NCBI RefSeq assembly: GCF_964204865.1
Contig: NC_135253.1
Coordinates: 21,302,001 to 21,366,000, forward strand
Direction: 5' to 3'
DNA length: 64,000 nucleotides
Source: Styela clava
Lineage: Eukaryota > Chordata > Ascidiacea > Stolidobranchia > Styelidae
Below the pieces are notes generated by a model. It was not told the origin of the DNA. It did no database searches and saw only the letters and a list, made by a program, of their open reading frames with translations. Positions 3,001 through 63,958 of this stretch are shown here, in pieces. How positions within the stretch are numbered: position 1 is the first letter of the stretch; each line of letters begins with the position of its first letter. Made by a program: the position numbers and the translations under genes.

Positions 3001-4658
3001 CTGATATCAAATATCTGGTCTCGTGAAAGAGGTCTAATTTTCAAATTATAATCTTCAGAAGGTTCTTCATGAATGGCTCCTCCTGCGACACCAAACCGAA
3101 TTGTTCCATGTCCTACTGCCTTTTGTTTCAATGATTTTACAAAATTACGTCTTACCAAAGAATGGTTACTGCCACCATCAAGAAAGAAATTTGCCTGGAT
3201 CCATGTTTTGTCACTCGCCTGCACTTCTGCAACAAGTAATGGAGAATAATCCAAATTAAAAGCGCTCAATTGTCTTGAATGCATCTGAGATTGGTTGAAT
3301 ACTGCTGCATTAGAGTGAATATGTTGACTTTCCAAATTCGAGTCGTTCATACCAGAATTTCTCATTGTATTGTAATTTCCTTGTACTTTTCCGGGACATA
3401 ATGACCAATGATGCTGTCTTTGGTTACAATTTACACAGCTATTGGCTGTTGTTCTCGCACAATTTCTTGCAAAGTGAGTTCCTAGACATATAAAACATCT
3501 TCGATCATCTGCTATAAAGTTTTTTCTTTCAGGAATTGATAGGTTTTGATATTTGTTGCAGTCTATAAGGCGGTGCTGAATTCCACATCCAAAAATACAA
3601 GTGACTGTCCTTTGACGTGGCTGAACTGAACCCATGTTATCATTCTCGTCTGTAGCATGATTAACCGTATTGAAATTAGATCTTGGCGACTGGTTTTGTC
3701 TCGGTCGAAACCTCATATTCTCGGTTTGACTGATAAAGTTACCAGATATTTCCAATGCTGTAGCTTCAGATCTCAGAAAATTCGTTATAGATTCCAAGTT
3801 ATGATTACCTTTGCTGGAACTATTATATCGCAGTGCAGTGTCTGCATCTAGACACTCTAATGCTCTATTGACAGAAATAACCGAGTTTGCATCCTGTTTT
3901 AACCCAAGATCTTCCATACGTCGGCAGAAGAGAGAAATTTCGTGAGCTAGTCGCCTAAGGTTCGCTGGATTACGAGAGGTCTTATATAAAGGTTTTATTT
4001 GCTCGTATTGCTTGATTACTTCACGTTGAACTACTGATTTAGGAATACGCTCTTCCAGGCGTTCCCATGCACTTGAAATTGATTTACAGTCACATATCAT
4101 TGTTTGATAATCGTTTGGCATTGCACCATTGCGTATAAGCCATGAAATTTGCACTAAATCATCCGTAATTCTAGCATGGTGCATTATATGTGTAAAACGT
4201 TCTTTCCAGGTATAAAAGTCTACTTTTTGTCCGTTCCAGCATGGCGGATCCATACCACATAACTTAATCATAGGAGGATCATTATTATAATTGTTTTGAG
4301 CGGTTACAAGAGATGATATCACCGGCTTTATATCTAGTTTGTCTTCATATTTCTCAAAATCGATTGCAATCTTGTTTTCCACACGTAAAATTTCTTCACT
4401 AAATTTAGATATAACGGGTTTTTCCTCACTTTGTGTAGTACTGTCTTCTTCAATTAGAGCCAATTCCATAGTATCAATTAGACAGACCAAAAATGCTATT
4501 TTATCGTTAGCATCATGAAACAGTATTTTGACCTTTTCAAAATCTCTTCTTTCCAGAGAGTGCTCAAATCGTGTTAAAATTCTTTCCAAATTTACTTTGA
4601 GTACCGGAAACTTACTCTTGAGTTGTTTGAAATTCTGACCTTGAAAATATTCTGCCAT
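1..4658 (-). mobile_element. BEL/Pao LTR retrotransposon polyprotein, 3' part beyond the window
   Basis: One reading frame runs from an ATG at 4656-4658 to the left edge (at least 1,552 codons). Four widely spaced motifs (start, protease, RT and integrase) fall in the same frame, so it looks undamaged. Order on the minus strand: a Gag-like region of DUF1759 type (about 4250-3950); cysteine clusters ending in a CX2CX4HX4C knuckle (about 3600-3400); a protease with DGGS at about 3170-3179; a reverse transcriptase with YIDD at 1902-1913; an RNase H with SDGG, KELMG and IDSKV; an integrase zinc finger (HX4H and CX2C, about 470-350); and the integrase core with its first two Asp (AMDFFG; SDGG at about 63-71). 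The third catalytic residue lies outside. BEL/Pao elements copy themselves through reverse transcription and integrase. I could not identify LTRs or a primer-binding site. An in-frame extension upstream to about 4762 exists but has no ATG. Confidence 0.93.
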
Positions 4659-7536
4659 TGTTAGTTGGCATTCTTGCTTTGATGTATTGCTGAATCCTCG
4701 AAAGGTTGAAGAAGAACTGCTTGATTCAGACTCCAGTTTGTAGGTGTAGGTGCAGTATCATTAAATGTCACTAATTTGGATTTCTGCCCATTGACAAATC
4801 ACCCTTGCCTACTATGTCTCTTTAACTAATATCCCGAAATGAAACGAATAGATTTCTCCCAAAGTGATTTAATCCAGATATCAGTAAGACAAAGTGACCT
4901 GACAAACAATAAAGATGAATATTAAAATGAGTACAGGCAACCAGGCACAATACAAAGCAAGAATATACCAATTCACTTACATTTAAATGAGGCTTTGTCA
5001 GAACAGATTATCCCAATGTAAGAAACTTAAGAAATAGAATATTCATACCCAATGACTATAGCACCATTAACAAGCTTATGAGAACAGATCTAAAGACAGA
5101 CTAAAGCTCTAGACAGTTAACCATAACAAGAAGTAATCAAGTAATCAGCCAATAATCACGATGCAGTGAACCATACGTAAACACACCAAAAGTAAGTAGT
5201 ATCAAGATAAATCAGTCAAATGTTCAAACCATTGACGATTATACCGGAAAGATTCTTTTTGACTCATTGGCCTGGCATACGACAAATTGTGATATCAATT
5301 AATCATCACTTAATTAAAATGATATATAAAAACACAATATTCCGATTTAAATTAACAAAGTAAAAAAACATGTAATATGTAATATTACGTACTGTATACA
5401 TTCATCAGATATCTAAAAATTTAAAAAAAGAAATATATAATAATGTATTATAATTACCTAAACCATATCAACTAGGATGGCGCAAGCAAGGTCGCAAACA
5501 AAAGTTTGGTATTCAAAACGGTGATGATTTATTGTAGAACAGTGGCTATTAAACTGGGGGGCGCGAGATGCTCACCAGATGGAATCGGAAATTTACATGT
5601 TACGGCTCCTGAAACGGTCTCCGCGTTCGTTCAAAATACCGACTTTTTCGTGTTATAATGAATTTTTCTGTCTCGTAATAACTACAATAATTCAAAATGT
5701 CTCTCTATTTTAATTCATTTGTGTTCAAGGTAACTCGCGGTTGCGGCGACTCACGACAAAATAAACTCATTACTTATCTAAAATACCACGCCAATCCGCG
5801 GACATAATTAAGTATAATCAACTGCCCGGTTATATTTAGTTTTTATATATATTGCACTCATGGGAATTCGTTGTCGTCATTAGAAAGATCTGGTATAATA
5901 TCTCAGAAAGTATATTTAATATAGTACAATTAAAATACATGTAAAGTATATTAGTAGATAAAAAATACATATTCATCGAAACGAAATCCCTGCGGTACGG
6001 CTTCTGAGTCAGTCCTCGAGGTTACGCCAGTCGTTGAAAGAGTCGACTTTTTCAACGGTAATGTAATGGTTTTTCTGTTGAATAAAATATTCAATCCATG
6101 ACCGATATACTTATTTAAAATGGTTGCTTTATTCATTCAATTCTAATAAATTGAATCTGCGATTGCGTCGATAAAATAAAAGCGCCAGTACTCCAAAATA
6201 ACACGGTAATCCGCAATCATAGAAATGTCGATTACATTTTGTTTTGATTTGTATTCTTGCCAATTTCACCAATATGAGCTGTCCCTGCAACTCTTACTTC
6301 GCTCTATCGCAATGCCGCCACTCGATTAATTTCAAGATATCACCGTTATAGATATTCCTAAGTCTGCGATCCCACGAAGTAAAATTTATATCAAGTCTGT
6401 AGTTTTAGAACACTACTGGTGTGCCGCACGCACAAGGAATTAATGAGATTTTCAATGTCTAAGAAAGTGTTTTTAATCTGTCGCGGTCCACCCCAAAACA
6501 AAACTCATGGCGTTTTTCGTTTTTTTTTTTCTTTTTATAATGCCACTTTTACAATAAAGAAATTTTTAGTTACGGATTCACTTCTTTCTTCTATCTTTAG
6601 CATCTCGTCGCTGATGATTATAATAAAAACTAACCCGTTTTCCTCATAGGTGACATGGTTCCATTCGAGAACAAAAAAAGTAATTATAATCGTCTTCGCT
6701 TCACAAGAATATGTCGAGGGAAATTTTGGATTTAGAAAGAATAGACACTGAATTCAAGATTTTTAGGGCTCAAATACCACGCCACGCTGACGTAAACAAT
6801 GGAGATTTAAACAAAATGCAATCGCAAACGCCTTAGCGACAACAATTAATTGAAATTTTACGTGTCTTATGTAAACGCTTAAGCAGAAAATATTTAAAGC
6901 ATTGGTTTATTGCTTGTTTAGTTTTACTTAATAATTAGTTTGACTTTGCCAAGTATTGCAAACTGAGCGGAAAAACAAGAATGTATGATGGCCAATCACT
7001 ATTTGGCTTTATACATACGACAGTGACGCTATGAGACCAACACTCTGTTATAGCGCCATCTTGATATATAACAACTTGTCCATCACAAAAGCATTTTTTC
7101 GAAGCAAAAAGAGGGGGGGGCGCGAAGTTTGTAAAATTTTTCGAAGGGAGGCGCGGCTTAAAAAGTTTAGGAACCACTGTTTTAGAATGTAGTGAAAATA
7201 GAAAAATACTCGTATGCTTGATTGACAATAATGCGATCGAATAGTTAAGTGTAAAGTTATGTGGAAGATAATGGTGTCGCTGCACGATAACCAGTAATGA
7301 TGTCTCGCGCCTCCCTTTACCCTGAGGTAGCAAATTACTTCATTTTTATTGTTTATTCATAAAATGTATTTCGGTAGGGTCAAAATAAACTGGTGATTAC
7401 TGAAAAATTCACCCCAAAATAGCTACGCTACATATTATTTTCACGTGCAAATTTTTGTTGAATTCAAGCGTTCGCCAAGCTTCTGAAACATTTTACGGAT
7501 AAAATTATTTTTCGTGCGGATAAGAATATTTTTATA
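4659..7536. other. No gene seen; probable BEL/Pao leader or LTR plus hAT-like remnants
   Basis: The first several hundred bases next to the retrotransposon ATG should hold its untranslated leader and 5' LTR, but I found no convincing TG...CA pair with matching ends. Near 5545 and 7140-7190 there are remnants of hAT-type elements; the minus-strand reading at 7190 begins CAGTGGTTCCTAAACTTT. Reading frames here (for example 6935-7333 minus) overlap these remnants and look accidental. Confidence 0.4.
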
Positions 7537-47815: not shown

Positions 47816-47981
47816 AAGAAATATTTGCCTCTTTTCTAATAATACGAACAATTCATTAAAACTAGATACTTGACAATTATTACAGTAGATAAATGAGAAA
47901 CAAGCACAAGAAAGCATAACAAAGACTTATTTAAATATTCTGACATAATGTGCCATGCTTGCATCAAAGTTAAAATATGGA

Positions 47982-48217
47982 TACTCCCGAAGTATTTGAA
48001 CCAAGATGGCAGACACCGGAACGTAGTATGTGTATCAGGTTAGGGTTAGGACATAATTTTATTCCAATTTTCCTTATTTCAATTCTATTTCGTGTTTTGG
48101 ACTAGCCAAGTGACTCGCGTAGTATTTGTACCTGAAGTTATTGCCTAACCCTAAACTGGTACACATACTACGTTCTGATGTCCGCCATCTTGGTGCACAT
48201 ACTTCTGGAGTATCAAA
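47982..48217. mobile_element. CAAGATGGC-type MITE copy 3' of the kinase-KEN cluster
   Basis: The left side has GAACCAAGATGGCAGACACC and GGAACGTAGTATGTGTATC; the right side has GTCCGCCATCTTGGTGCACA and TACTTCTGGAG. Both terminal repeats are well preserved. Confidence 0.85.
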
Positions 48218-48691
48218 ATATGCATTTATTGAAATGCAAACAATGATAAATAGTCATTTAAACTCAAAATATTGAGCTACATAATAGTATTTTCTAATAT
48301 CATTCACGAAAAATTCAAAAATACATTTGTACTCAGATAAACTCAAATAGTCAGGCAATCCAATAGTATTCAAAGAGCCAAAGAAATAAGCAGAACTTTA
48401 TAACATTTAGACTTAATTTCATTTACAAAGTCCCCTTGAAGCATTACTCAAAAATCTACATAAATAAATGGTTAATTTCAGTTATTATGAAAATTGGTAA
48501 GCTTGCTTGAATTCTTGCATTATTTTTCAATCTCTTATACTAAACCTAAGTGTGTGGAGTAAAAAATTGGAAAAAGTGATCACATTAATCAATCACATCA
48601 ATCAATTTCATGTAAGCAAGAAACTCTGTAGGCTAAATTTTTTTAAAGCAAGGTCATAGAGCAATGATCAGATAAAAGCTACAAAAGGCGA

Positions 48692-49776
48692 TCAGACATG
48701 CGGACACTTATGATATTTATCGTAGATATATCCAAGAAAATTTGGAAATTTGTTTGAGAGTGTTACCAACAGGTTATCAGCATTGTCTACACCTAACTCT
48801 ATGTACCAATAACAGACATTTCTTTTTTGCAATTCTGGAATACCAATTTTTTTTTTGTCTCCACAATGGGTGAACACATTTCGATAAAAACACAGCAAAG
48901 ATTTGCAAGACGTTTCATTATAAACTGAACACACTTTCTTGTTCGTATTATAGGCAGTGTAATATAAAATCCCATCCTTTTCTTCTTTGAACATACTCTT
49001 CCAATTCTTTGTTTTTAACACCTTTTTACATGTTTCGGGTGTCCAGGTTGGAATTTCATGGTAAGGTTGGAACCGCTTATAAGCCTCCTGTATAAATTGC
49101 CTTTGTTCACTAAGTTTGAGGAAGAAAAAGTGTTTGCTGACACAAGATGGCAGATTTGTTATTGTATCAAAAAGATGGTGGAACCCTGATTTTTCTCTTT
49201 CGGGTTTATCTCCAATTTGAATAACATGTTCGCAAGTTTTTTTTAGTGCAGTCAAATCCATTATATTTTTTTCAACTGTTTCGGAAGCTTTTAGGGGAGG
49301 AAGTAATTTAACTTTGCCTTTCACGCAATAAATCTTAGAAAGCCGTACGTCAACAAATCCCTTCTTCCCCCATCCCAGATGGCAAAGTGCCTGAATAATC
49401 TGCAGTATAATTTTCTTTCGTTCGCCCAAATCTAGACTATTTGGAATCGATCGCCCATCTGAGTTACTTTTTATGTATTTAGAAAGAAGTTTGAATCCTT
49501 CAAAGTTCTTTATTGCAAGGAATCCTATATTTTCATTATCTGGAAGAGTATTTGCTGCAGTAATATTGAGAACATTTTCATGGACCGGCATGCCAAGTTG
49601 GAGCTTGGTTTGCTCTGGTGCAACCAATTTCACATGAACTTTGTATGGTACCGTTTCATTCATGTATCCTTCGTATAACTTATCGGTAATGTTTCTTGGT
49701 TGCTGAGACTTAGTAATAGCTGTTACTTCTTTGATCAGTGAAGGCTCAACATATACACCCCTATGCAGCAATATGT
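48692..49776 (-). CDS. Terminal exon: degenerate pseudokinase with KEN domain that keeps RNase residues
   Basis: Acceptor TTTATTTAG, phase 1, 361 codons to TGA. The N-lobe survives as LYEGY and VHVK. The HRD loop has become VDVRLSKI and the DFG region LLPP, and the activation segment and much of the C-lobe are shortened, so ATP hydrolysis is not expected. The C-terminal 130 residues align with KEN. The stretch YNETSCKSLLCFYRNVFTH keeps the Tyr, Arg-Asn and His (RN followed by His three residues later) that form the RNase active site in IRE1, and it ends in the family's NKFPNFLGYIYDKY helix. The N-lobe start lines up with the starts of the other two kinase exons, indicating exon duplication. 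A catalytically live KEN on a dead kinase resembles the logic of RNase L. Confidence 0.85.
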
Positions 49777-52700
49777 CTAAATAAAATAGTACTTTAGGAG
49801 CGTTAATTGATTTATGGAATTATAATTTCCAAATTTTCCTTGTTTTATTTGACCTGTTTGCATAGACTGGAATAATATACATTTCAATTTAATAAAAAAA
49901 TGAAGAACAGAAACATTTTTTTCAAGTTTTCAGTACCAACATTCCTAAATCTTGATTTAAAAAAACGTAATAATTTTATATTAAATGTGATGGATAGTTG
50001 CAGAACTGCATGTTTTAAATGCCTGCTGATGACAATGCATAACAAACAAATTATTTCCCCGCCTAAATTACCTGTTAGCTGTTGAAAGTACTTTGAGAAA
50101 TCACATTAATTTTTAAACTTTGTTTTTTATTAATGGTGGAATTCCTCCAAAACCGTTTTTTTTGTGGGGAAATTGTTACATAAAGCAGCATAAAACGTTC
50201 CTTATAACATAGTCTGGTGCTATTTTTTCAGTGTTTTGATAGTCTAGAGATGCAATTTTTGTGCTCTCTGCAAGAAATTTTGAAGAAATGTACCACAACC
50301 TCATGTCTGGTTACCAGTTCATGTTGGGATTGGGAATAGTTCGCCAGTTATTTTTTTCAGATATATGGTCTTATACCCCTCCTCACGAGATTCAAACCCA
50401 CACAAGGTAATCAGAGGTGCAATGACAGGCTTATCTTTAACACTTATCACGATGCACCATATCGCCGAGCCTTACAAGCTTTAGGCTGCAAAAAAATGAA
50501 AAATCAAATACTTCGGACTAGGGGATTTAGGTTTACTGACTCACATTTGACACCTTTTACTTCTATTTCGGGTTCATCTGGGACTCTGGGTCTATCTTCG
50601 TGTGCCCTTCTTCTGACCACAAAATCATCTAAAAAAAATTGCAAAAAGTTTAGGTATTTATAATGATCAGGTTCCATGCAGCAAAGATTGTAAATATAGA
50701 GTCGTAAGTTATATTGTGGTGAACCCACCTCTTCTTCAATTTTCAAAGTACAAATTGCTTGAGTAAAATAGATCTGAATGACCTCATATTTTGACAAGAA
50801 TTGAAACATCTCAGATGACATTATTTGTCTACTCTGGGTTAATTAAGGTTTGTGCATAAGATGCTACTGCTTTTTGGAAGAGTCAGAAACTTTTTGGTTT
50901 GGCATTACCCACCCAAATCATTACCCCTTGAATGATGTGTGGCATGGGATTGAAACAGGAGATGAGTAAAATGCAATATCAGCCACTAGGTAAATTTTTG
51001 GGGGTTTTGTAAACTGATTTTCATCATCAAACCGTTTCCCTGAAAGTGTGTACATTAGTAGCGTCAGGTTTTATGTCAACAGGTATCTATAAATAAATGA
51101 TAACCCTTCATCAGTGATGTATTTACTTTAAAGCTATTACAAACCTGTAATGGCAGGTGCCTTAAAGTCGACCTTCTGCAATAAATGAATATTTTCAGCT
51201 CTTTCATGGATATGTAGATTAATGTCAGGAGACTGATGCTTGGAGAGATTCAGCGCAAAATTTTTTGTTATGCATTTATCAGTATCTTCAAAAATAGTCT
51301 GGACATCAACAGTAACTGGATAGAACAAAACAAAATAAACTCCCATTACTATCAAATCTTAATTAAATTGGTAAATTTTATAATTATTAATATATTTAAT
51401 GATGGCTAGAGCCCATGCTAAACTGGCATAGATATAAAATTCTATCAAAACTCAGGATTTAGTTATGAAAAAGACAACTGAATTTACATAAAGTTATTAA
51501 ATGATAATTTACAAAATAGCTACAAGAGGTTGTGGTAAGTACCTTTACTTTTAGCAGCTACTTTTGCTTTTCTGTTGCGATGATTCGTTCGACTTTCACT
51601 TGTGTCTAAAAAAATGTGCAAAAATTTAGAATTGGTAATCGAATATCTATATTCAAGCGCGGCGGTGTGGCTCAACGAGCTAAGCGTTAGGAATATGCAC
51701 GCCACCGCACCTCTAATTACTCTGCGTGGGTTCGCAGGTTCGAATCCCATGCAGGGATGGTTATGTGCGAGAGGATTGCTGGACTTCTCGCCGTCATTGC
51801 GTGGTTCATGTAACCGCTGGTCGGTTACGGCTTCCTCCACCACCAAGTCCATGCTTCCGAAAACAAACAATATAACTAATCCCATACCCGACTTGGAATG
51901 GTAACCGGACGAGAGGCCGGGTTCGCCTCTCCCCGGGATAAATATGTAAATCCTATCCTATAACATGGTAGTAATGATGGTTTGATGTTTCACTAAACAT
52001 GGTGGGAATGTAAAGTATGTTATAAGCCTCGTGAAGTAAGTGACCAATATAGCCCTAACAGTAATATATAAAATACAAATTGCTTGAAAATTTTATTCTT
52101 GTGGGTTAGTAATGTCAGTCAGTCAGTGAAATGGTTTGGTTCAAAACCGATACTATGTAATGTTTTTTAGAATAGTAGAGTGAAGATGGAATAATAAAAA
52201 TCATGAAAAATATATTCTAAATCTATAAACTATTTCTAAATCTAATTTATTTAGGATTATGCTTGCCACGGCGCCTCTGATCAAGTTCGAATTTTGTGGG
52301 GATATTTATGTGCGAAAGGACTGGACCTGTCACTCTCGCAGAGTGGTTCTCGAAACAGCTGGTTGGTCGATCAATATTGCCTTATGTTTTCTTCTTTCTT
52401 GTGATAAATATGAAAGACTAAGTAATATTCAGATTAAATTACCTTCACTTCCAAGAGTGACTTCAACACTACTGTCCAGTTTAAGGTATAGTGGGTTAAT
52501 ATGAAGTATGGGTGTATCTTTCGCCTGATCGACATCTTTCTGGCAATGGTTATATTCGGTATGTCGCAAATAAAATTTTGCACCAAAATTACCATCTGGA
52601 ATGCTTCTATTTACATAGAGCATACCCGATATTCCAAATTTAACGTATTCTAAATCCTCTATATCGATGACAAAAACGAAAGATTCTCGCCCTCCAACTT

Positions 52701-55700
52701 GAAGAGGAATTTGGATAATGTTTTCATTTGGCTTATTGGGCAGAAATATCTTGGGCAGAATGTCTTGTTTTTTCCATTCTTTACATTTTTGTTTGAGCAG
52801 TACTGTGTGTACTTTGTGTACATCTGTGGCTATGCATAGTGTTTTTAGTTTTATTGCTTTAATTGACATTGTTTCTTTGAATTGCAAAATTGGAGTGACA
52901 GCAAAATAGTTCTCTGGAAGTCCTGGGGCTTTCTCTAATATTCTGTAAGATGCAAAATTGGACTTGCCATCTTCATATTCAATTTGACAACCATCAAAAT
53001 GCAGCTCACCTGAAATTATTAAATTGATGTCATAAATACCAAATTTGACAATCAACATTTGACAATTACAATTTATAGCCGCATTGTACTAATCTATGTT
53101 GGCATTCCATGTGACAGAATTCAGATTAAAGTATATTGACCGCAACCACAATCTATAAAATCGGTAGGCTGCTTGATGAAATGAAAATATAGAGTAACAA
53201 CGTAAACATCAGAGCTGCTTGCTTATAGCTTTGTTAACCTTCAGGAATGTTAAAAACCTCTCTCACCTTTTTTTTCATTTGACCCCATGTTACAATTTGA
53301 TGATCACAGTTCAATAGGATTGAATTGAAGACAGATTTCAAATATTTTTAGGCTATATTTATTTATCTAAATCTGAATGGAAACACACACATTAGAGATC
53401 AATTCATATTTGAAAAATAGGATAAGGCCAATATAAATACAAATGATTCATTAATACACAATTCTTCAGTTCTCAATAATCCTCACAAGATATGTTTCTT
53501 TTTATTCAGTAATTGTTTGAGTTTTTTTTACTTCATTAAATATTGTACATTGGGGACTGTGAGGGCCAAAACAATATATGGTAATGATAAAATAATTGCA
53601 ATTTAAAAAAAAATGTAAGACTTTATGGACGCCTTATATATATTTAGAAATTATGATATATATATATACCGGTATATCATAATTTCTAAATACTCTGATA
53701 ATCTCTAAAAAACAAAATTAGTCATTCTGATTTTACACTTATTGAAGTTAGCAAGTAGCAAAAACAGTAAATAGTTTACTACATCCTATAACTATCACTA
53801 ATTCTACAAACCAATGTCTATAAATAATCTTATGCAAGAGCAAATTACTAAAACAGAACTAGAAATACTTGAGGTCTATTTATTATGCAATTAGTCACAA
53901 TTCTACTATACAACATATTATTCATTTTTTTATCACAAAAATAGCTGAGCTATCCTGTACATTTGAAAAGCAATTGAAGAATTAGAATTATGAAATTACT
54001 TTAAAAAATAACAAAAGAAGTTATGTTGAAGTATTTCTGATAAAAAATCATTTCTATCAAATTCCAATTGTAAATCAGCAATCTACATATGTTTGACTCA
54101 CTGAAACAAGAAAATCGCAGAAAGTGGGAAACTACCAATATTGAAATTCTGAGATTCAACTTTTTTGTCATCAACAGAAATTTCTGCAACAACAGGGCAT
54201 GTCGGCAAATCACTTTGAAAATATTCTAAATTAACTTTTTCTAAATGAGCTGCATGGTCAAGACGACTTTCATCAAATTTAAACTCACCAAATTGCTTAT
54301 TCAAATTTGGATGGCTTTCACAAAAAAGTTGCAATTTCAACGTTTGACCTATTTTGACTGAAAATGCATTAAATTCAACTGCACATCTGAAACCAGGACG
54401 TATTTCTGAATGATACCGACAATCATTTTGAATATGAAAAGCTAGAACCATTTCACAAAAATTGTTATAGTATAATGCAGCAACAACTTTGAAATAAATG
54501 TCTTGCATAGCACTTTTTTTGATAGCAAATATCAACTGTTCAAAATTTTTCAGTGAGCATGAAACACAATTTTTCTCAGGTAATTTATCTGATGTTTCTA
54601 TTTGCTGCCCATCACGAAATTTCAACAACTCAACACCCCCATTTTTCTTGCTGCTATGACATATAGTTTTCATGGTCACATAAACTTTTTCTCTCAATTT
54701 TTGTTCCATAGTGCAGTTTAGTATGGGACCAATAGGGAACACATCCTCGAAGTTGTGTGGAATAAACGATTTTTGTCTATCGAATTGAGCAACACATTCT
54801 GACACTTGAACAAGAGCTTCAGAATGGAAAGAATCGTAGCCAAAATTCATTGTTGCATTCTTCAGTTCAATTATATCTGTTTCATCATATATCACTAAAA
54901 AATATAAACACACTTAACCACGTTAAAATGGAAAAGTTGAATAGTATGTATCATTGAAAAACTAGTATATGTGTAATTTATGCAAAATATTTTTACATGT
55001 CATACATTTTGCGCTATAAAAGCTTTGACTATCAAAACAATTTAAGTATTTCTATTTCGAAAAATAGAGCATCTATGCATTTTTTCCTCAATGTCAAATT
55101 ATCTTGAAATATACTTTGCATAATTTCAAATTACGGTACATGTATATTTACTATATTTTCAATTTTATATGATAGAATTTTATAGATTATTTGGCATCAG
55201 AAATTTTTGATGAACCATTGTTTGTACAATTTAAAATTTAGGTATTACAGATGGCTACAATTTCTCAATTGAAACCCATAAGATATGATTTACACATTCA
55301 TTCAGGGGGAAAGGAAAGCCGATAGGACGGCTTAATCATATCGCAAACCACGGCCATACATCTGGTTACTACTCCATGTCGGGTATAGGATTAGTTAGCC
55401 AGTTATTTGTTTTTGAAAGCATAGGCATGATGGTGGAGAAAGCCGAACAGCGGTTACGTGAACCACCCTAAGGCTGCCAGGAGTTCGCATGAGATTCGAA
55501 CCTTAGCACAATGCCAAGTCTAGAGTTACTGTTGAAGATATGAAGTTATCACAGATTAAGTAAACAACAATAGAATGATATTGAAATCACTACATCAAAT
55601 ATTTACCATAACATTGATGCATTAAGAAAGTGAAATAGCTTACTTTTCTCCACTGATGGAAGATCTATATCAGAAAGTGGATAGATACGAGCAGCTGTGA

Positions 55701-58700
55701 CTGGATTTAGTTTGTCTATATATCAAGGGAAATGAAAAAATAATTGAATACATAACAAATCTTCAAAATACAAGTGCTGAACTTGAAAATTGCTCAGGTA
55801 AATTCATACTGATATGTTCACATCCAAATACTGCTACAAATAAGACTATTTTATGCTGCATAAGGATCTACTATCAAAGTATATAATCGAAAAAACAACA
55901 ACAATAAAGCTTATTTTATTTACCATAAACATGCTATGGAATGGGAATGACTACTTGAATGTGTCAGTTAAATATTAATCCAAATTAATTATTAAGTTGA
56001 ATGAAATGAAAATTAGTGAATTGACCATGTTATTGTCATATTTATTGCATTAATTGGACATAGAATTCTGTTTAAATTGAATGTACTTCAATATGAGACT
56101 AACTAATCAATCTTACTATTTTGTTATAGTTCCAAACTAGGAACTAAAGTTATATTTATATACCATGCAAGCAGGAGAACTACCAATAATATTGTCAAAT
56201 TTGAAAAGTAGTAGGACAATTTTTGAGACAAATTCTCAGCATCATCAAGTTACTGTTATTCCGCTTTGTAAACATACCTTTCATCAACTCAAAAACTATT
56301 CTTATAAGATCAGGAAATTGACGAGAAAAAAATCCCCATATGCCTTCAATGCTGGAAAAAATTCCATCTTCAGACCTGTCTTTAAATATTTTTTGTAAAA
56401 ATTTAATATATCCAAATATTGAATTTTCATACTGCCCTTCACACAATTTTGAAAAAAGATCACTTTCTGCTGAAATTTCCTCTGTGACCTCCTCTATCCA
56501 GTTTTCAAAAACCTCTTTATCGTGATCATCAATTTTTTTTTGCAAGTCATCCTTGAGCTTTAGAGCATTATGGCACAGTTCGATCTTTTTTTCATCTTCC
56601 CAAAAGAAAGGATGCCTTAGAATTTTTTTGGCTGAAGGACGTTTATTTCGATCCATGTCAATCATTTTACTTATCAAATCACTCAATATAGTAAAGTCAG
56701 TGATTGGATCGAGATCGTCCAAATCGAACTTCCCATTACGTATGTTATCAACACGTTTGAAATTACTACCGAAGGGATGCTTCCCTCTTGTTAAAGTATA
56801 GTAAAAGATATTTCCGAGAGAAAATATATCTAATTTACTACTTTCTTTATCTTTTTCTCCTATTTCCGGGGCATCCCACCCTGTATTCTCAAAAACACAT
56901 GAATTATCTGTTGTACTCTTTGTACCTAATGAAATCCTTTTGCTCAAGCCAAATTCTGAAATTTGCATGAAGTCTCTGTTGCCAGAAAGCCAAATTGTGG
57001 ATGGGTTTAAATTTCTGTGCATTATATCTTTCTCATGCAAGTATTTCAATCCATTCGTGATGTGAAGTAAGATTTGTTTTAAAGTTTTCACAGGCATGTT
57101 TTGATGATCCCTAACTACTTCAAACAAAGTGACTGAGCTGCACATTTGCACAGCAATAAATGCCTGAGAAAAGTCAGTTGAATTATTTGACCTGACGTAC
57201 GAAATGATATTCTGGTGGTCATCTACATTACGTAAATTTTCCATTTCAAGTTTTAGATTTTTTTGGCTCTGTTTATCTGGCTCATGTATGTCAAATATTT
57301 TAACAGCAACATCTCTTGGAATAGTGGATTTACATTCGAAGCCCCCAAATATATCGTAGTGTGGATTAAGTTTTCTTGTGTAGTCCACATAAACATCATT
57401 TCCAACATGATAACCTAGATTAAGAATATGAGATAGGTCACTTCAGCGAAGATGAATTTCCAAGTTAATTTTATTACATTGCAGTTCAGGGGGAAACTTG
57501 AATCATCCACACAGTTCGGACTCAAGCTTTTTTAGACTTGGAATGGCTAATAAAGGATATGAGAAGATATGATTTTAACATGGGAGCAGAGATGATTAGA
57601 CAGCTTAATCATATGGGCGTGCCAAGGCGCCTCTTGCAGTTACTAGTATGTGTCACGTATGGGCTTAGTTATCCAGTTATTTTTGTTTGGATGCATGGAC
57701 TTAATAATGTTTGAAACTGTATCCAATCCTCTCGCACAGGATTCGAACCTGCGAACCTACGCAGGTTGATCATATGTGCGATGGCAAGCATATTCCTAAC
57801 GATATAGTCATCTAAATTGGATGACCCAACTTGAACTTGACTAAACACCAGGGAGTTCACTTAAAGAAAATTCTGGGTGAGTATGGAAAAATTCTGGTAA
57901 AGTATAATTCACTATGGTGGATAAATTTTGATTTAAAAATCTAAAAATTGACTCGATTTTGTCAACAGGCTATGATGACTGATTGCATATTTTCATTTGT
58001 CATTTTCAATTCTACACTCGAAACTTATTTTCCCTATGAAAAATATTATACATTCATGGGATGTACAAGCCGCAAAAAAAATATGGAGTCATGACTGCGT
58101 CTCAAAACTGTGTTATCCGTTATCCCACTTGTTCCAACTATCCTACATTCGGGCATGCTTTTTTCAATTGTCGGACAAAGTAGGCCAATTTTGGAAAGTG
58201 TAAAACAAGTACAAGTCAAGGGTGAGAAGAATGAGTGGAAGACTACTACACCAACTGCGAGTAACATGGGGAGCAAGTGCGAGTAGAGTGAAACAACTGG
58301 GAAAAGCGGGATACAACATTCTTGTGACATTTGGGTGTATTTTTGAATACTCAAAAATCTTGAGTAGCTGCTTGTGCATAACCTAGTTAAGAGCAATTGT
58401 GTCAGGTCAATGAAGTCAAATCAAGTTCGTTTATTCAACCAGTAAAAAAATGAATAAAAAAAGATAAATAGACAGTTGTACTGGAGTAGGGAGGTCACAA
58501 GAACCGAGGGAGGTTACCGTAAATGACATGAAGTTATTTCAATATCAGTATAGATTATCAGTACTTACATAAGCTGCACTTCTTTGTGATGTTTTTTAAA
58601 TTTTTATTGTCCTCAGGCCAGATTTCGAATGAGTATTTTTTTAGAGGGTCCTCGGGGTGATACAGGAACTGAGATCCATGAACACTGTACTCAGAATCAA

Positions 58701-58820
58701 CTGGATCTTCTCCAGAATATGCCTGGACTTTATATATGGGCTTGATTCCTGGACTTGTTTTCCAAACGACTTTAATTCCTCCATAATCAGGTTCAATTGA
58801 TTGTATTTGAACATCCATAT
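48692..58820 (-). CDS. Multidomain FN3 / double pseudokinase-KEN protein, about 1,395 aa (model)
   Basis: Proposed exons in coding order: 58569-58820, 56278-57414, 55644-55715, 54136-54894, 52443-53009, 51543-51605, 51145-51315, 50545-50628, 48692-49776 (ends in TGA). Every internal junction is phase 1 and, starting at the in-frame ATG 58816-58818, the parts sum to 4,188 bases with no stop. Order: FN3 (1-84), pseudokinase plus KEN (84-462), linker, two copies of an unrecognised beta-rich module (487-739; 740-928 with 950-1006), basic and acidic linkers, degenerate pseudokinase plus KEN (1035-1395). KEN is the RNase domain of IRE1 and RNase L, and this combination is not their architecture. 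No signal peptide or membrane segment is seen, so a cytosolic role is likely. Weak points: the donor at 54135 (GTAGTT), the first exon, and whether the upstream gene splices into this one. Confidence 0.7.
50280..50478 (-). mobile_element. SINE copy in the kinase-KEN gene
   Basis: Reverse-orientation blocks GTCTGGTTACCAGTTCATG, GAGATTCAAACCCACACAAG and CACTTATCACGATGCACCAT match the SINE family. Confidence 0.7.
50545..50628 (-). CDS. Short linker exon, charged
   Basis: 84 bases, phase 1 at both ends, acceptor TTTTTTTTAG and donor GTGAGT. It encodes DFVVRRRAHEDRPRVPDEPE and then IEVKGVK, a hydrophilic linker joining the second module to the last pseudokinase. No domain is recognised. Confidence 0.6.
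51145..51315 (-). CDS. Exon encoding the C-terminal part of module 2
   Basis: 171 bases, phase 1-1, acceptor TTCTATCCAG, donor GTTTGT (weak). The encoded FALNLSKHQSPDINLHIHER with a following LLQKVDF resembles the last third of module 1 (HLEKVNLEYF). Module 2 would therefore be split over exons that are fused in module 1. Confidence 0.55.
51543..51605 (-). CDS. Tiny basic linker exon
   Basis: 63 bases, phase 1-1, acceptor TTTTTTTAG, donor GTACTT. It encodes TSESRTNHRNRKAKVAAKSK, with eight Arg/Lys in 20 residues, which could act as an RNA-contacting or nuclear-targeting linker. The evidence is splice sites and frame only. Confidence 0.45.
51660..51960 (+). mobile_element. tRNA-derived SINE, most complete copy
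   Basis: The head contains pol III promoter boxes: an A box, TGGCTCAACGAGC, at about 51668-51680 and a perfect B box, GGTTCGAATCC, at 51737-51747. The spacing is larger than in a normal tRNA gene and no cloverleaf closes, so this is not a tRNA. The tail runs through GGTTCATGTAACCGCTGGTC and TCCACCACCAAGTCCATGC and ends near GGATAAATATGTAAATCCT. At least nine related copies lie in the window on both strands, half of them in the kinase-KEN cluster. Confidence 0.85.
52255..52385 (+). mobile_element. SINE fragment
   Basis: TTATGCTTGCCACGGCGCCT, then AAGTTCGAATTTTGTG and TATGTGCGAAAGGACT, follow the central part of the SINE at 51660. Confidence 0.7.
52443..53009 (-). CDS. Exon for beta-rich module 2 (possibly ZU5/UPA-like)
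   Basis: 567 bases, phase 1-1, acceptor AATTTCAG, donor GTAATT. It encodes 188 residues rich in beta-strand patterns. Parallels with module 1 are visible: ENYFAVTPILQF against EDVFPIGPILNC, KAIKLKTLC against KVYVTMKTIC, ESFVFVIDIED against EQLIFAIKKSA, and KFGISGMLYVNRS against FKVVAALYYNNF. The GPIL/TPIL strand and the following Val-rich strands resemble ZU5, and the later LYV/HLYL-like strands resemble UPA, as in UNC5, PIDD and the FIIND of NLRP1. The HFS autocleavage triad is absent. The family call is tentative; the internal duplication is clearer. Confidence 0.6.
53641..53692. repeat. Perfect 20-base inverted repeat with AT spacer
   Basis: TATTTAGAAATTATGATATA at 53641-53660 is mirrored exactly at 53673-53692 around TATATATACCGG. 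Immediately left, GACTTTATGGACGCC resembles the mariner-like MITE end, so this may be the remains of such an element. Confidence 0.85.
54136..54894 (-). CDS. Exon for beta-rich module 1 (possibly ZU5/UPA-like)
   Basis: 759 bases in the phase 1-1 model; acceptor TATTTTTTAG, donor GTAGTT. A stronger-looking GTGAGT lies at 54101 but is phase 2 and would break the frame into the next known exon. Reading on gives FLFQ and a stop at 54098-54100, so a shorter protein ending here is possible. The module (about 250 aa) has the features described for module 2, with NFEDVFPIGPILNCTMEQKL, VYVTMKTIC and VVAALYYNNF as landmarks, and a C-terminal part (KFDESRLDHAAHLEKVNLEY) matched by the separate exon at 51145. 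Confidence 0.65.
55310..55530 (-). mobile_element. SINE copy
   Basis: Reverse-orientation blocks AGGACGGCTTAATCATATCG, GAAAGCATAGGCATGATGG and TTCGCATGAGATTCGAACC match the SINE family. It lies in an intron of the kinase-KEN gene. Confidence 0.75.
55644..55715 (-). CDS. Short linker exon after the first pseudokinase-KEN
   Basis: 72 bases, phase 1-1, acceptor TGATATATAG, donor GTAAGC. It encodes KLNPVTAARIYPLSDIDLPS and then VEK, a proline-containing linker. Splice sites and frame agree with both neighbours. Confidence 0.6.
56278..57414 (-). CDS. Pseudokinase-KEN exon, both activities predicted lost
   Basis: 1,137 bases, phase 1-1, acceptor TTAATCTAG, donor GTATGT. The kinase fold is clear: VAVK lysine, TGWDAPE, DIFSLGNIFYYTLTRGKHPF and RPSAKKILRHPFFW. 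The catalytic loop is HRNLNPST (Asp to Asn, and the metal-binding Asn lost) and DFG is EFG, so it is a pseudokinase. KEN follows directly (FWEDEKKIELCHNAL to FFSRQFPDLIRIVFELMKG). The active-site helix reads FGYIKFLQKIFKDR, where active family members have Arg-Asn and a His, so RNase activity is unlikely. This unit may serve for dimerisation or regulation of the active KEN units encoded on either side. Confidence 0.88.
57592..57810 (-). mobile_element. SINE copy
   Basis: Reverse blocks AGACAGCTTAATCATATGGG, AATCCTCTCGCACAGGATTC and GAACCTGCGAACCTACGC are clear SINE sequence, including the B-box complement. It lies between the FN3 and pseudokinase exons. Confidence 0.8.
58569..58820 (-). CDS. 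FN3 exon, possible first coding exon of the downstream kinase-KEN gene
   Basis: 252 bases, phase 1-1, acceptor TAATCTTAG, donor GTAAGT. It encodes one fibronectin type III domain: the B-strand Trp in IKVVWKTSP, YKVQAYSGE, and the F-strand pattern KKYSFEIWPED. An ATG two bases inside the exon (58816-58818) is in frame and could be the start; a candidate untranslated exon upstream ends at 59464 with GTGAGT. Alternatively the exon is internal and joined to the FN3 exons further upstream. Confidence 0.8.
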
Positions 58821-59097
58821 CTAAGATTAAACAGAATGGTCAGTAACTAGAATAGATCATGCTTGTCTAGTAAATGCTTATTTCTCGTTTCCCCAGTCTA
58901 GCAATAAATTGGTCAATTTTGTTATGCTTAGGCATGTTCTAAAATGCTTGATCCTAGCTCATATGTTGTTTTTTCATTAAATTAAATTAAATCAGAGTTG
59001 GTTGACTGCTCCATATGCTTCATTATATAAATAGACATAAAATAAAATGGACATAAAATATTGTAAAGAAAGAAAAGGCATGAATGACTGAAGGTGT

Positions 59098-59290
59098 TTC
59101 GAGCATAAGGAATATGCTTTCCATTGCACCTCTGATTACACTGTGTCCAATGCAAGCTTGAATCCTGTTGGGCATAATCTTGTGCGAGAGGATTGCTAGA
59201 CTCCTCGCTGTTGTAGGGTGGTTCATTTCTTCGCTGGTCAGTGAAGACTTTCTCTACCATCAAGCCCAATCATAATCCGTGTGATTGAAT
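59098..59290 (+). mobile_element. SINE fragment
   Basis: GAATATGCTTTCCATTGCAC, GCGAGAGGATTGCTAGACTC and GTAGGGTGGTTCATTTCTTC follow the middle of the SINE at 51660. Confidence 0.7.
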
Positions 59291-59651
59291 CGTTTTATCG
59301 ACTTACCTCTCGCTCAGATAGAATGATTCAGATTCAGATATTTATGATGATATAATATTCTTATCCTTGAGAATTTTCAAGTTAAAATTTATTATCAGTC
59401 AAGTCACCAGAGAGTGTTAGAAAAGCATAGAGATCTCTCACAAAATAGTAATAGTGTACTCACCCTAGTTTTTTCTTTATGAAATTGTCAATTTGGCAGC
59501 AAAAATTATTAGTACTATTTTATCATAGATATGAAACTGTAAAATATAAAAAATGATTACAAATATTTTAGGATTCCTAATAAAGTATGCATAAAAAGTT
59601 TTTTTATGACTCTGAATCATACCACATTAAGTATTTCTACTACATTATAGA

Positions 59652-59962
59652 CCAGGGGTGGGCGCGGTTTTTGGATCAGAAACCAAAAATTTTGCCCATC
59701 TAGACTGGCTGGCCATGTAAGTATGACATAAAGAGTTACATTTTATGAACAATGTTTACAGTGTTACAGAAGAAACAGTGGAAAACAATAAACCTCGTGC
59801 CAAAACAAAATTTAACCACAATCTCAACAAATTCCTTGAGTCATTTTCAACTAAATCATCAAAATTTGGTTCCATTTTGGTTGTGGCAGAATCAGACGGG
59901 CCAGATGGAAATACCTAGCGGGCCAGATTAGGCCCGCGGGCCGAATTTTGCCAATCTCTGTT
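59652..59962. mobile_element. hAT-like MITE
   Basis: The left end is CAGGGGTGGGCGCGG. The right part GGCCCGCGGGCCGAATTTTG followed by CCAATCTCTG is the matching terminal structure. No coding capacity. Confidence 0.6.
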
Positions 59963-60177
59963 ATGGACCCATAAGACATTGCATTGTAAGAAAATATCAA
60001 ATATATATAACTATAATATGAAAATATTCGCGTCATTTTAAAATAAGTATTGAAGTACATAAAACAATTTCTGAAAACTAATATCAATTATGATCAGTAT
60101 GGAATAATTTATAATATAAACCTCCAACTCGTATCATGTTGACTAACATTTCACAAAGTTTTCATATTGAAGTTGGC

Positions 60178-61490
60178 TCAGAAATGGTCAAAATGGGCAA
60201 AATAGAAATTGGGAGAGACAGCTGAGCCTGGAAACTTTGGCTCATTGACAACCATTTCATTAAATTCATCATACAAGAAAGTGAAAAGATGAGGAAAATT
60301 TCTTTCAATATACAAATGAAGTTTTGGCAAGTATTCATAAACGTTATATCTGTTGTGATAATAGGAATTACGTATCATGCGTACAAGATCGGTAATCTCA
60401 TTGAAAGGCATGTATTGTGAGGGTGCAAGGTTAGTAATCTCATAGAAAGGCATTTGTCGTAAGGGTGGAAGATCCATAATCCCATAAGAACTCATGTATT
60501 GTAAGGGTGTTAGGAGCAAAATTTCTCTATGCATCGCATCATATACATTTCGTCCACAGCAACTACTATGAACTATTTTCCATTTATAGTTTATTTTCTG
60601 AATAAATTCTGATGTATAATATTGAAAATTATTCAGATAATTTCCTACGTTGACAACAAATGACAACCTCTTAGAAATCGTCCAAAAAAACGGATGGTCA
60701 AGCACCTCCGCTGCATTAGGTCTATTGTTTAGGTTATATTCAAGCATTTTTGAAATGATATCCTGAGCAAGTAAAACTTCAGGTCCTTTTAAATGAGATA
60801 TATCATACTTAGCCCCCTCTACCATGGCCATTTGACATTTACGCATTTCTTTCCCAAAAGGATGTTCCCCTTCCGATAGAACAAAATAAAATATTACCCC
60901 AGCTGAATATATATCACTTTTTGTGGACAATGTTTCACTTTCAGCAGTAAATTGCTCAGGTGCAGCCCAACCCTGTGTCCCTATGTAATGTGATGATTTC
61001 TTGGCTTGGGTTTCATGAGATATTTTCTTAGTCAAACCAAAGTCTGATAATTTAATAGTCTTTCCATCCAAAGAGATTAAAATGTTTTGCGGCTTCAAAT
61101 CTCTGTGTACGGTTCCCATTTTGTGCATGTATTCAATACCAGATGATATTTGGTACAAAACATCTTTATATTCAATATCAAGTTCTTTTATAGTCTTATG
61201 CAAAACTTTTTCATGCAGTGTTTCTACCATACACAGTTCCATAGCAATGTACATCTCTGTAGACATTGCAGAAAAACTAGATCTGATATATTCGACAATG
61301 TTTCTGTGACGAAGTTCCATTGCATGAATAAGTTCTCGATAAGCATGGTTGCGACTTCGTATTCCCAGCACTTTAACTGCAACTTTTTTGCGTGATGAGC
61401 CGAAATCGACAAATCCTACATACACATTGAAACCTCTCCTCAAAGGTTTATTCAGTTGCACATGTATATTCTGGCCAAGGTATGATGTCT
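60178..61490 (-). CDS. Kinase plus KEN RNase exon with intact catalytic residues
   Basis: 1,313 bases, acceptor TCATATCTCAG, phase 1. Kinase marks: VAVK, the alpha-C Glu in RELIHAMELRHRNIVEY, HRDLKPQN (about 61080-61105), SDFGLTKK, GTQGWAAPEQF, DIYSAGVIFYFVLSEGEHPF and RPNAAEVLDHPFFW. KEN starts at FFWTISKRLSFVVNVGNYL. Its active helix reads ITDLVRMIRNSYYH, with Arg-Asn at 60367-60372 and His at 60355-60357, as expected of a working RNase. It ends in FPHLFTFLYDEF and a 24-residue tail. Just before the active helix is an in-frame insertion of three 14-residue repeats. In this family kinase-domain dimerisation activates the RNase, whose substrates here are unknown. Confidence 0.92.
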
Positions 61491-63958
61491 CTGAGATATG
61501 AAAAAATATGTAATAGTAAAATGTTTTTGAGTAATATTTAACAGTTGACAGGTAACATGCTTTGCAATACAACAAACATGGTCTTAATGTGCAGGTTTGA
61601 ATTTCAAATGAGATACATCAACAAGCATCAATCAGCATTGCATGAATGAACTTACAACAGTACGTGTTGAGCGATCATTTGACATTGTTTGGTAGAATGG
61701 TTCTTAAGTTTCTTGTCATCCAATATCTAATTTTGTTTTTACATGTATAGACTGTTATATATGGCTATCACCTTGTTAGTAGTTTCTTTTATTATTACCC
61801 AACCTTATAACAAAGGCTGGTCATATTAAATCCCACATAAGTATCTTCATTAAAGAGGTTAAGTGAATATTTAACTGGTAATAAATTACCTGGTGAGCTT
61901 TCACTGTGTCCTTCATCAATTCCAAGATTGGCTGTTTATTGAAATATTTGAGAAATTTAAGTATATCAACAGATTCTTTGTTTAACAATTATCTAGTTTT
62001 AATATTATACTTAATCTAGTATTGTGATTGATAGGAGAAAATTGTAATAAATTACAGCTATTCCACGAAGTGATAAATTGCTACACCAATAAGTATATGG
62101 TTCCTCAAATTATAATAGCATCATATGTCTCAGTGGTTGTTTGCATAGAGTCTGTTGAAGATAATATAAAACTACAAATTTCCTCCTAACTGTGTGGCTG
62201 GCAACATGCATTTAACAATATAACAGTTGTATAAAGCCAGCATATATGCAAAAACTAAATGAATTATTTGCCTACATTAGAATATTTCCTAGAATTTTAT
62301 TTTGAATTATCTATTTCAATTCAACTTTGATAATCCGCAATAAAATTTTGCCAATTTATGCTCCTAGAATTTCACTAATTTAGAGCAAAAAGTCAAATTC
62401 AAATTTGTTTCGTTCGATTTTCACCTTTATTGAAATATTATGAGGCTTGTTTTAGTTTTTTCACACGAGATGTCAATCAAAAAAATTATAATTTTTCAAA
62501 TGGAAATATTTCAAATTATTCCTAAAATCCACAATTCATTATTAGAGTATTAAATTTTCTTGTCTTTGTTACTCCAAGTATACCAGTACAATATTATTGC
62601 AATACCCTATATATGCTATATATACTGCTTAAGATCCACTATTATCAATTTATTTCAATATTTTTAAATGATGGAGAACATACCAATTAAAGCTCTCAAA
62701 TTGTACTTACGAGTCATGACTTGATTGGTACTGACGACAGCACTATCAATACCAAATTTGTCTCTGGCCCAAACTTGAAATGAATATGTTGAAGCAGGTT
62801 GAAACGTGGCCAGCGTGAATTTGCCATCTTCTCCAATATATGTCCCTGATTCCTGCCCATAATATAGAACTCTAATATGAACCGACAATGAATCATTTTT
62901 CATGTCATCCCAGGTTACATGTATCTTATTCTCCTTGATGAAAGAAACGACATTTTTCACTTTGCAAGGTGCTGTAAAAAAAATAAAACATTGCACTTAA
63001 TATTTGAAAAGTAATATGTCTGCTCAAGCTGGAGTAATCATACTGGCTGGCTCATATCATGAAATATAACAAAGTGTCAATTATGATTGGAATGAAATTT
63101 AAAATATGCATATTCCCACTCACAATTTGAGCATAAAAGTAGCATTCTAAAGATTCATAAACAGATATTGTATTGTACATGGAAAAATACAGTATACCAA
63201 TAACAGACATGCTATTATTAGAAGGTCGAACTATACATTCAGGTGAAACCAAGTATGTCGGTAAGTGTTTACACAGCGATATGCTTCATAGCACAACAAA
63301 AATTTTCTAGACCCGTGAGTACAGTGAACAACGGAAAAATTAAATTTAAAAAAAGGATTGCGTGAGACGTCGCAAAGAGACTGGGAAATTAAACAAAACA
63401 ACTAGCCTAGTTGTACAATGATATCTTCAAAAAAAATAGGTAGTATAGCATAACTATTCATGTTCCAATATTCTTCAATGTAATTCAATTGAGTGTTGCA
63501 TCAAACAAAATAATTCTTTCTATATCTTAGAAATATGATATATCTTAATTTATAGGCAACTTAACAAGGTCCATCAGACTTATAATCTTAATAAGTTGTG
63601 GAAAATATGAAAAGTTTGTCCAAATTTCTTTTGAGGAGAATATGTCACAGGTATTGCATTAAACAATACGGACATTTTTTTATAATTTTTTGTTAGTTTA
63701 GATTGATAATATTACCTGATTTCACATTCTGTGAGAGTGCCTCAAAATCATGAGTTTGAACCTTGAAAAAATATTCCGTGGATGGTTGAAGTGGGGTATA
63801 TCTCGCAGCAGGTGAAGATGTTTGTATCTTATGTATCAGTATACCAGTGCGGAAGACTGATACATTGTAATCCTGATCAAGGTTTTCTTGTGGATTCCAG
63901 CTGAGGAAAAAGTCTCCTTCAATGATTGAAACTTTGACTTCTTGAAAATTATCAGGGT
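60178..63958 (-). CDS. FN3-FN3-kinase-KEN protein, 3' part of a gene running off the right edge
   Basis: Exons in coding order: 63716-63958 (FN3), 62711-62971 (FN3), 61890-61931 (14-residue linker), 60178-61490 (kinase plus KEN, ends in TGA); about 618 residues in the window. All junctions are phase 1. Both FN3 domains show the core Trp (FFLSWNPQ; KIHVTWDD) and the F-strand (TEYFFKVQTHD; STYSFQVWARDK). The kinase-KEN is of IRE1/RNase L type with both activities apparently intact. Neither IRE1 nor RNase L has FN3 domains next to the kinase, so this is a distinct family member. The N-terminus, including any signal peptide, is outside the window. Confidence 0.85.
60385..60510 (-). repeat. Three tandem 42-bp in-frame repeats inside the KEN domain
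   Basis: Units 60469-60510, 60427-60468 and 60385-60426 in coding order encode TPLQYMSSYGIMDL, PPLRQMPFYEITNL and APSQYMPFNEITDL. The last unit merges into the start of the catalytic helix. Confidence 0.95.
61890..61931 (-). CDS. Short linker exon between FN3 and kinase
   Basis: 42 bases, phase 1-1, acceptor CAATAAACAG, donor GTAATT. It encodes PNLGIDEGHSESSP. It is supported only by splice sites and frame; without it the FN3 exon would still join the kinase exon in frame. Confidence 0.5.
62711..62971 (-). CDS. FN3 exon (second in window)
   Basis: 261 bases, phase 1-1, acceptor TTTTTTTTACAG, donor GTAAGT. One FN3 domain per exon: KIHVTWDD, HIRVLYYGQESG and FQPASTYSFQVWARDKFG. Read with the preceding exon it starts APCKVKNV, a typical FN3 A-strand. 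Confidence 0.88.
63716..63958 (-). CDS. FN3 exon (first in window)
   Basis: 243 bases, phase 1-1, acceptor ATATTTTTAG, donor GTAATA. FN3 landmarks: FFLSWNPQENL, YNVSVFRTG and PSTEYFFKVQTHDFEA. The gene continues upstream past the right edge. Confidence 0.85.

Follow-up and report, generated by a model that had tools for sequence, protein, structure and literature searches.

Adjoining kinase-KEN genes in the tunicate Styela clava appear to encode IRE1 relatives with FN3-like or unnamed modules in place of the IRE1 membrane part

What is encoded by a locus in which kinase-KEN exons, FN3 exons and beta-rich modules are interleaved on one strand? The question arises from a 64,000-nucleotide stretch of the genome of Styela clava (a stolidobranch tunicate, Tunicata), here called the window, whose initial annotation proposed that several KEN units in one polypeptide or locus replace homodimerization. 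The minus strand does contain a trio of large exons combining a kinase or kinase-like fold with a KEN domain (60178..61490, 56278..57414 and 48692..49776), although the strength of support varies between them, and the three FN3 exons that had been noted are likewise borne out (63716..63958, 62711..62971 and 58569..58818, the last counted from its ATG). The sequence nevertheless indicates three adjacent genes, A, B and C, following one another directly on the minus strand, rather than one polypeptide. A protein search with the spliced downstream exons returned LOC120326395 and LOC120326393 of Styela clava at 99% identity. The latter is gene B (P0123, 751 residues) and the former gene C (P0121, 663 residues), and the spliced window exons of both match their database proteins letter for letter with no internal stops, the exon joins lying at AG/GT sites in the window in agreement with the NCBI proteins. 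The B and C models contain one KEN each and A has its own stop, and we therefore reject a multi-KEN polypeptide as a replacement for homodimerization. Searching the window by tblastn with eight Styela proteins (P0001-P0004 and P0121-P0124, E 1e-3) revealed no extra copies.

No database entry or gene model was found for gene A and its introns were consequently placed by hand, giving the order FN3-FN3-kinase-KEN. The 5' part of the gene runs beyond the window edge and the N-terminus of the protein lies outside the sequence read, so A may have a membrane part. Its first FN3 exon (phase 1-1) is supported by splice sites, by a Styela FN3 profile and by a Pfam fn3 match of 4e-4 (21.0 bits against a cut-off of 25), and the second (phase 1-1) by the same profile and an fn3 match of 0.0013 (19.3 bits, cut-off again 25). 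A small linker exon (61890..61931, phase 1-1) is proposed from AG/GT sites and phase. The kinase-KEN exon, which ends in a TGA stop, matches Pkinase at 9e-46, IRE1 chains in the PDB at 5e-47 and a home-made KEN profile at 2.3e-5, with a sub-threshold Pfam Ribonuc_2-5A match of 0.0021 (18.6 bits, under the cut-off of 23.3). The kinase retains HRDLKPQNI and SDFG, and the KEN domain retains RNSYYH. Just before the KEN catalytic stretch, at 60385-60514, this exon contains a 42-base (14-residue) coding repeat in three in-frame tandem copies.

Gene B comprises FN3, a pseudokinase, a KEN domain without the catalytic motif, a linker and a beta-rich end module. The FN3 exon is identical to the corresponding part of P0123, is recognized by the Styela FN3 profile and forms a block of pLDDT 67-85 over residues 1-80 of the structure model. 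The pseudokinase-KEN exon, also as in P0123, matches Pkinase at 2e-37 and the KEN profile at 1.2e-4; Pfam returns neither an fn3 nor a KEN match for B. The kinase motifs read HRNLNPSTI and SEFG, a pattern common to P0123 and a second database version of B, P0124, and the KEN catalytic motif is missing from both versions, this being the only one of the three KENs without it. The pseudokinase-KEN exon had been taken as terminal, which is contradicted by the NCBI model: this splices from 56278 to the linker exon (55644..55715) and then to the end module (54098..54894, with a TGA stop), and the window yields exactly that protein.

Gene C opens with a short leader exon containing the ATG (53267..53288), followed by a beta-rich module (52443..53009) and three linker exons (51543..51605, which is basic, 51145..51315 and 50545..50628), all identical to P0121, with a similar leader present in the second database version, P0122. 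The last exon encodes a degenerate pseudokinase without HRD or DFG and a KEN domain with RNVFTH, and ends in TGA. This assignment comes from profile-profile comparison and Foldseek. In the former, which aligned 299 columns, C scored 43.0 with an E of 9.4e-5 and a probability of 58.8%, where the best of 150 shuffles reached 24.4; when the profile is built from Styela rows only, it reaches C weakly (28.3 against 25.4 for the best of 150 shuffles). Foldseek ranks 1-35 with the C model are all IRE1 or RNase L, the model itself being of low confidence (mean pLDDT 51.6) and its alignment having included IRE1 rows; alignments that misplaced the pseudokinase of C were set aside and not used for prediction. 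The C kinase-KEN exon has no match by Pfam (Pkinase or KEN), PDB phmmer or the KEN profile, which gave -0.8 and 2.3 bits on P0121 and P0122 against 10.4 for the best of 2000 shuffled sequences, and the kinase parts of C and B do not match each other directly.

The kinase assignment in the initial annotation thus holds by Pfam for A and B and finds no Pfam match in C, and its KEN assignment, sub-threshold in Pfam for A and without a Pfam match in B and C, is upheld by the home-made profile for A and B and by profile-profile comparison only for C. Run on 1158 window ORFs, the home-made profile picks A and B and not C. The KEN R-x4-H motif (R-N-x3-H) is kept by A, C and all four other Styela entries, P0001-P0004. 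Domain and motif occur together in A, whereas B has the profile match without the motif, and C the motif with profile-profile support only. For FN3, the Pfam matches fall under the curated cut-off in A and are absent in B, but a profile assembled from eight FN3 segments of Styela matches FN3 chains of PTPRD (1.8e-9, the best), contactin-1 (2.7e-5) and fibronectin (6e-5), confirming FN3. NCBIfam returned bacterial kinase models far under their cut-offs.

An hhalign score of 26.5 (E 0.0032, probability 9.9%), above the 22.5 reached by the best among 300 column shuffles, shows the beta-rich modules of B and C to be related, in keeping with the proposed duplication. Their suggested ZU5/UPA identity is another matter. 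Four segments gave no Pfam match to ZU5 or UPA up to E 10, and the modules had no PDB sequence match up to E 10. The reach of these searches is limited by HMMER filters and poor modelling, so that a remote relation may exist, but we reject ZU5/UPA as a demonstrated identity. Since no named family was found and the structure model of the B module is without confidence, ZU5/UPA stands as a resemblance only.

All 11 of the introns placed (A 3, B 3, C 5) are phase 1. Phase-1 exons are easy to exchange, and cross-gene splicing within the locus is thus possible. This raises the alternative of a single complex transcription unit in which the upstream FN3 exons are joined in turn to the A, B or C end, and the splice acceptor just before the ATG of the B FN3 exon would likewise permit in-frame exon exchange. 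We nonetheless consider such an arrangement quite unlikely, given that B and C are separate in the NCBI models and that C possesses a short leader exon of its own, with a similar one in its other version.

How do these proteins relate to the known kinase-KEN systems? The domain content of B, C and the four other Styela entries supports the proposal of a kinase-KEN and FN3 gene set distinct from both IRE1 and RNase L. IRE1 (ERN1/ERN2) has its kinase directly before the KEN RNase domain, an order shared by A and B, whose best PDB sequence matches are IRE1, and found in degenerate form in C, with B lacking the RNase motif. IRE1 keeps its kinase motifs, whereas B and C do not, and it has a luminal sensor and a membrane span, where B, C and the four other entries begin with FN3 or beta modules. 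Hydropathy analysis found no membrane-like segment in B, C or the four other entries, the start of A lying outside the window: the best 19-residue value is at most 1.32 in B and C (two versions each) and in 4/4 other entries, compared with 2.62 and 2.58 in IRE1 controls. RNase L is soluble and pairs a pseudokinase with a motif-keeping KEN, as motif and profile comparison suggests for C, and Foldseek with the C model turns up RNase L chains among others; A differs from the RNase L pseudokinase in having kept its kinase motifs. Ankyrin repeats, a feature of RNase L, gave no Pfam match at E up to 1 in the window exons (which exclude the start of A), P0001-P0004 or P0121-P0124. With the luminal sensor and membrane span of IRE1 missing from B and C, and the ankyrins of RNase L missing too, the proteins are best classed as a kinase-KEN variant that is a member of neither group.

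A further comparison is with another tunicate, Oikopleura, for which the main text of Anantharaman et al. (2013, PMC3710099) describes an expansion of solo-KEN proteins in which KEN is separate from the kinase. The two cases are alike, on that account, in that a KEN family expands within one tunicate lineage, and differ in that KEN there is without a kinase whereas the Styela units are kinase-linked. The words fibronectin, fn3 and FN-III do not occur in that main text. The novelty of the locus is limited by this published tunicate KEN expansion, as far as that text describes it, and by the fact that three paralogues among P0001-P0004 are already named IRE1-like or ire-1-like in databases.

These four FN3-kinase-KEN entries head the best 120 of 4469 proteins scored in a kinase-KEN search restricted to proteins 0.55-1.75 times as long as the query; they may represent fewer than four genes. 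P0002 and P0004 lie on a 24.3 Mb contig and P0121 and P0123 on one of 25.4 Mb, indicating that family members occur elsewhere in the genome. In a tree of 32 rows with an arbitrary root, built without C, RNase L or tunicate IRE1, A, both versions of B and the four other entries fall on one side of a branch with 98/92 support, beside IRE1. Long branches, flagged by the tree program, weaken the grouping. From the sequences, the best reading is a soluble kinase-KEN effector family, at least in Styela.

Each of the B and C locus names covers two protein versions, differing by 19% in B (P0123/P0124; 597 of 736 aligned positions alike) and by 33% in C (P0121/P0122; 436 of 651). We infer that the pairs reflect two assemblies of the species, a mix-up of paralogues being possible; as alleles, such protein differences would be large within one species. 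By part, the B versions are alike at 90.4% in the kinase, 75.6% in FN3, 78.8% in KEN and 73.2% in the beta module, and the C versions at 72.7% in the beta module, 55.4% in the linker, 66.7% in the pseudokinase and 70.9% in KEN. Open reading frames and motif patterns are kept in both versions of both genes.

These data bear on whether the locus consists of decaying IRE1 duplicates, drifting after loss of the luminal part, in which B and C would be largely functionless. The loss of kinase and KEN motifs in B and of kinase motifs in C would fit such decay, as would the long tree branches and the 33% divergence between the C versions. It is, however, at odds with open frames and splice sites that yield the NCBI proteins of B and C exactly, with a motif pattern that is the same in both versions, with a B kinase part more alike than the FN3, KEN and beta parts around it, and with the retention of FN3 or beta modules by three units with ordered exons. 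Decay therefore seems unlikely. Pseudogenes as the main reading we reject, in view of the open frames, the exact splicing and the motif patterns common to both database versions.

To us, the best explanation, whose chances we judge to be about even, is that the three neighbouring genes come from a family of soluble kinase-KEN proteins particular to this lineage, which would act as RNases activated by dimerization, B being a partner that does not cut. Such a lineage-specific RNA-cutting signalling family is probable. In favour are the KEN support in A, B and C, the R-N-x3-H motif in A, C and the 4/4 other entries, the FN3 domains, the motif losses of B in both versions, the lack of a membrane-like segment in B, C and the 4/4 other entries, the 98/92 branch and the open frames kept in both versions; against it stand the failure of Pfam, PDB phmmer and the KEN profile (below the best shuffle) to detect C and the weakness of a C model built with IRE1 rows. 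Mechanistically, the FN3 or beta modules would bind a cytosolic partner or ligand and so gather the kinase-KEN units, and nucleotide binding, together with autophosphorylation in A, would favour IRE1-like dimers that switch on the KEN RNase. B may serve as a non-cutting partner or brake, and C may cut RNA with its kinase fold as a mere scaffold, as in RNase L. A role in immunity or stress is a guess, as is its execution by cutting viral or own RNA. It is also conceivable that the proteins are signalling scaffolds or kinases in which KEN dimerizes and cuts no RNA, and B, which retains the fold but lacks the RNase motif and whose kinase part is well conserved, would suit such a function; with R-N-x3-H present in A, in both versions of C and in 4/4 other entries, this is highly unlikely.

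A broader version of the RNase-family explanation, which we regard as doubtful, would make these proteins a third kinase-KEN effector class next to IRE1 and RNase L. It would be a soluble tunicate family, fast-evolving and with FN3 or beta modules, in which A is a kinase-RNase, B an RNase-dead partner and C a pseudokinase RNase, forming heteromers in defence. If the system works, a non-vertebrate chordate would have turned the IRE1 kinase-KEN module into soluble RNase effectors in parallel to RNase L. With kinase and RNase functions naturally separated among them, A, B and C would then serve to test how far KEN activation relies on the kinase fold.

Elsewhere in the window, Pfam searches of eight of the larger ORFs at E 0.01 had a Pao element as their sole match. 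Scans of the window for tRNA and Rfam families gave no matches at the thresholds applied. The Pao element corresponds to a long minus-strand ORF at 3-4757 with a retrotransposon peptidase match of 2.6e-36 and a weak reverse transcriptase match. Dispersed repeat pieces, 60-78% alike and in both orientations, lie in introns and between genes at 50292-50357, 51683-51851, 55347-55412, 57621-57686 and 59102-59268. Directly downstream of gene C is an inverted repeat (47975-48219) with 85-base arms that are 85% complementary and 75 bases apart.
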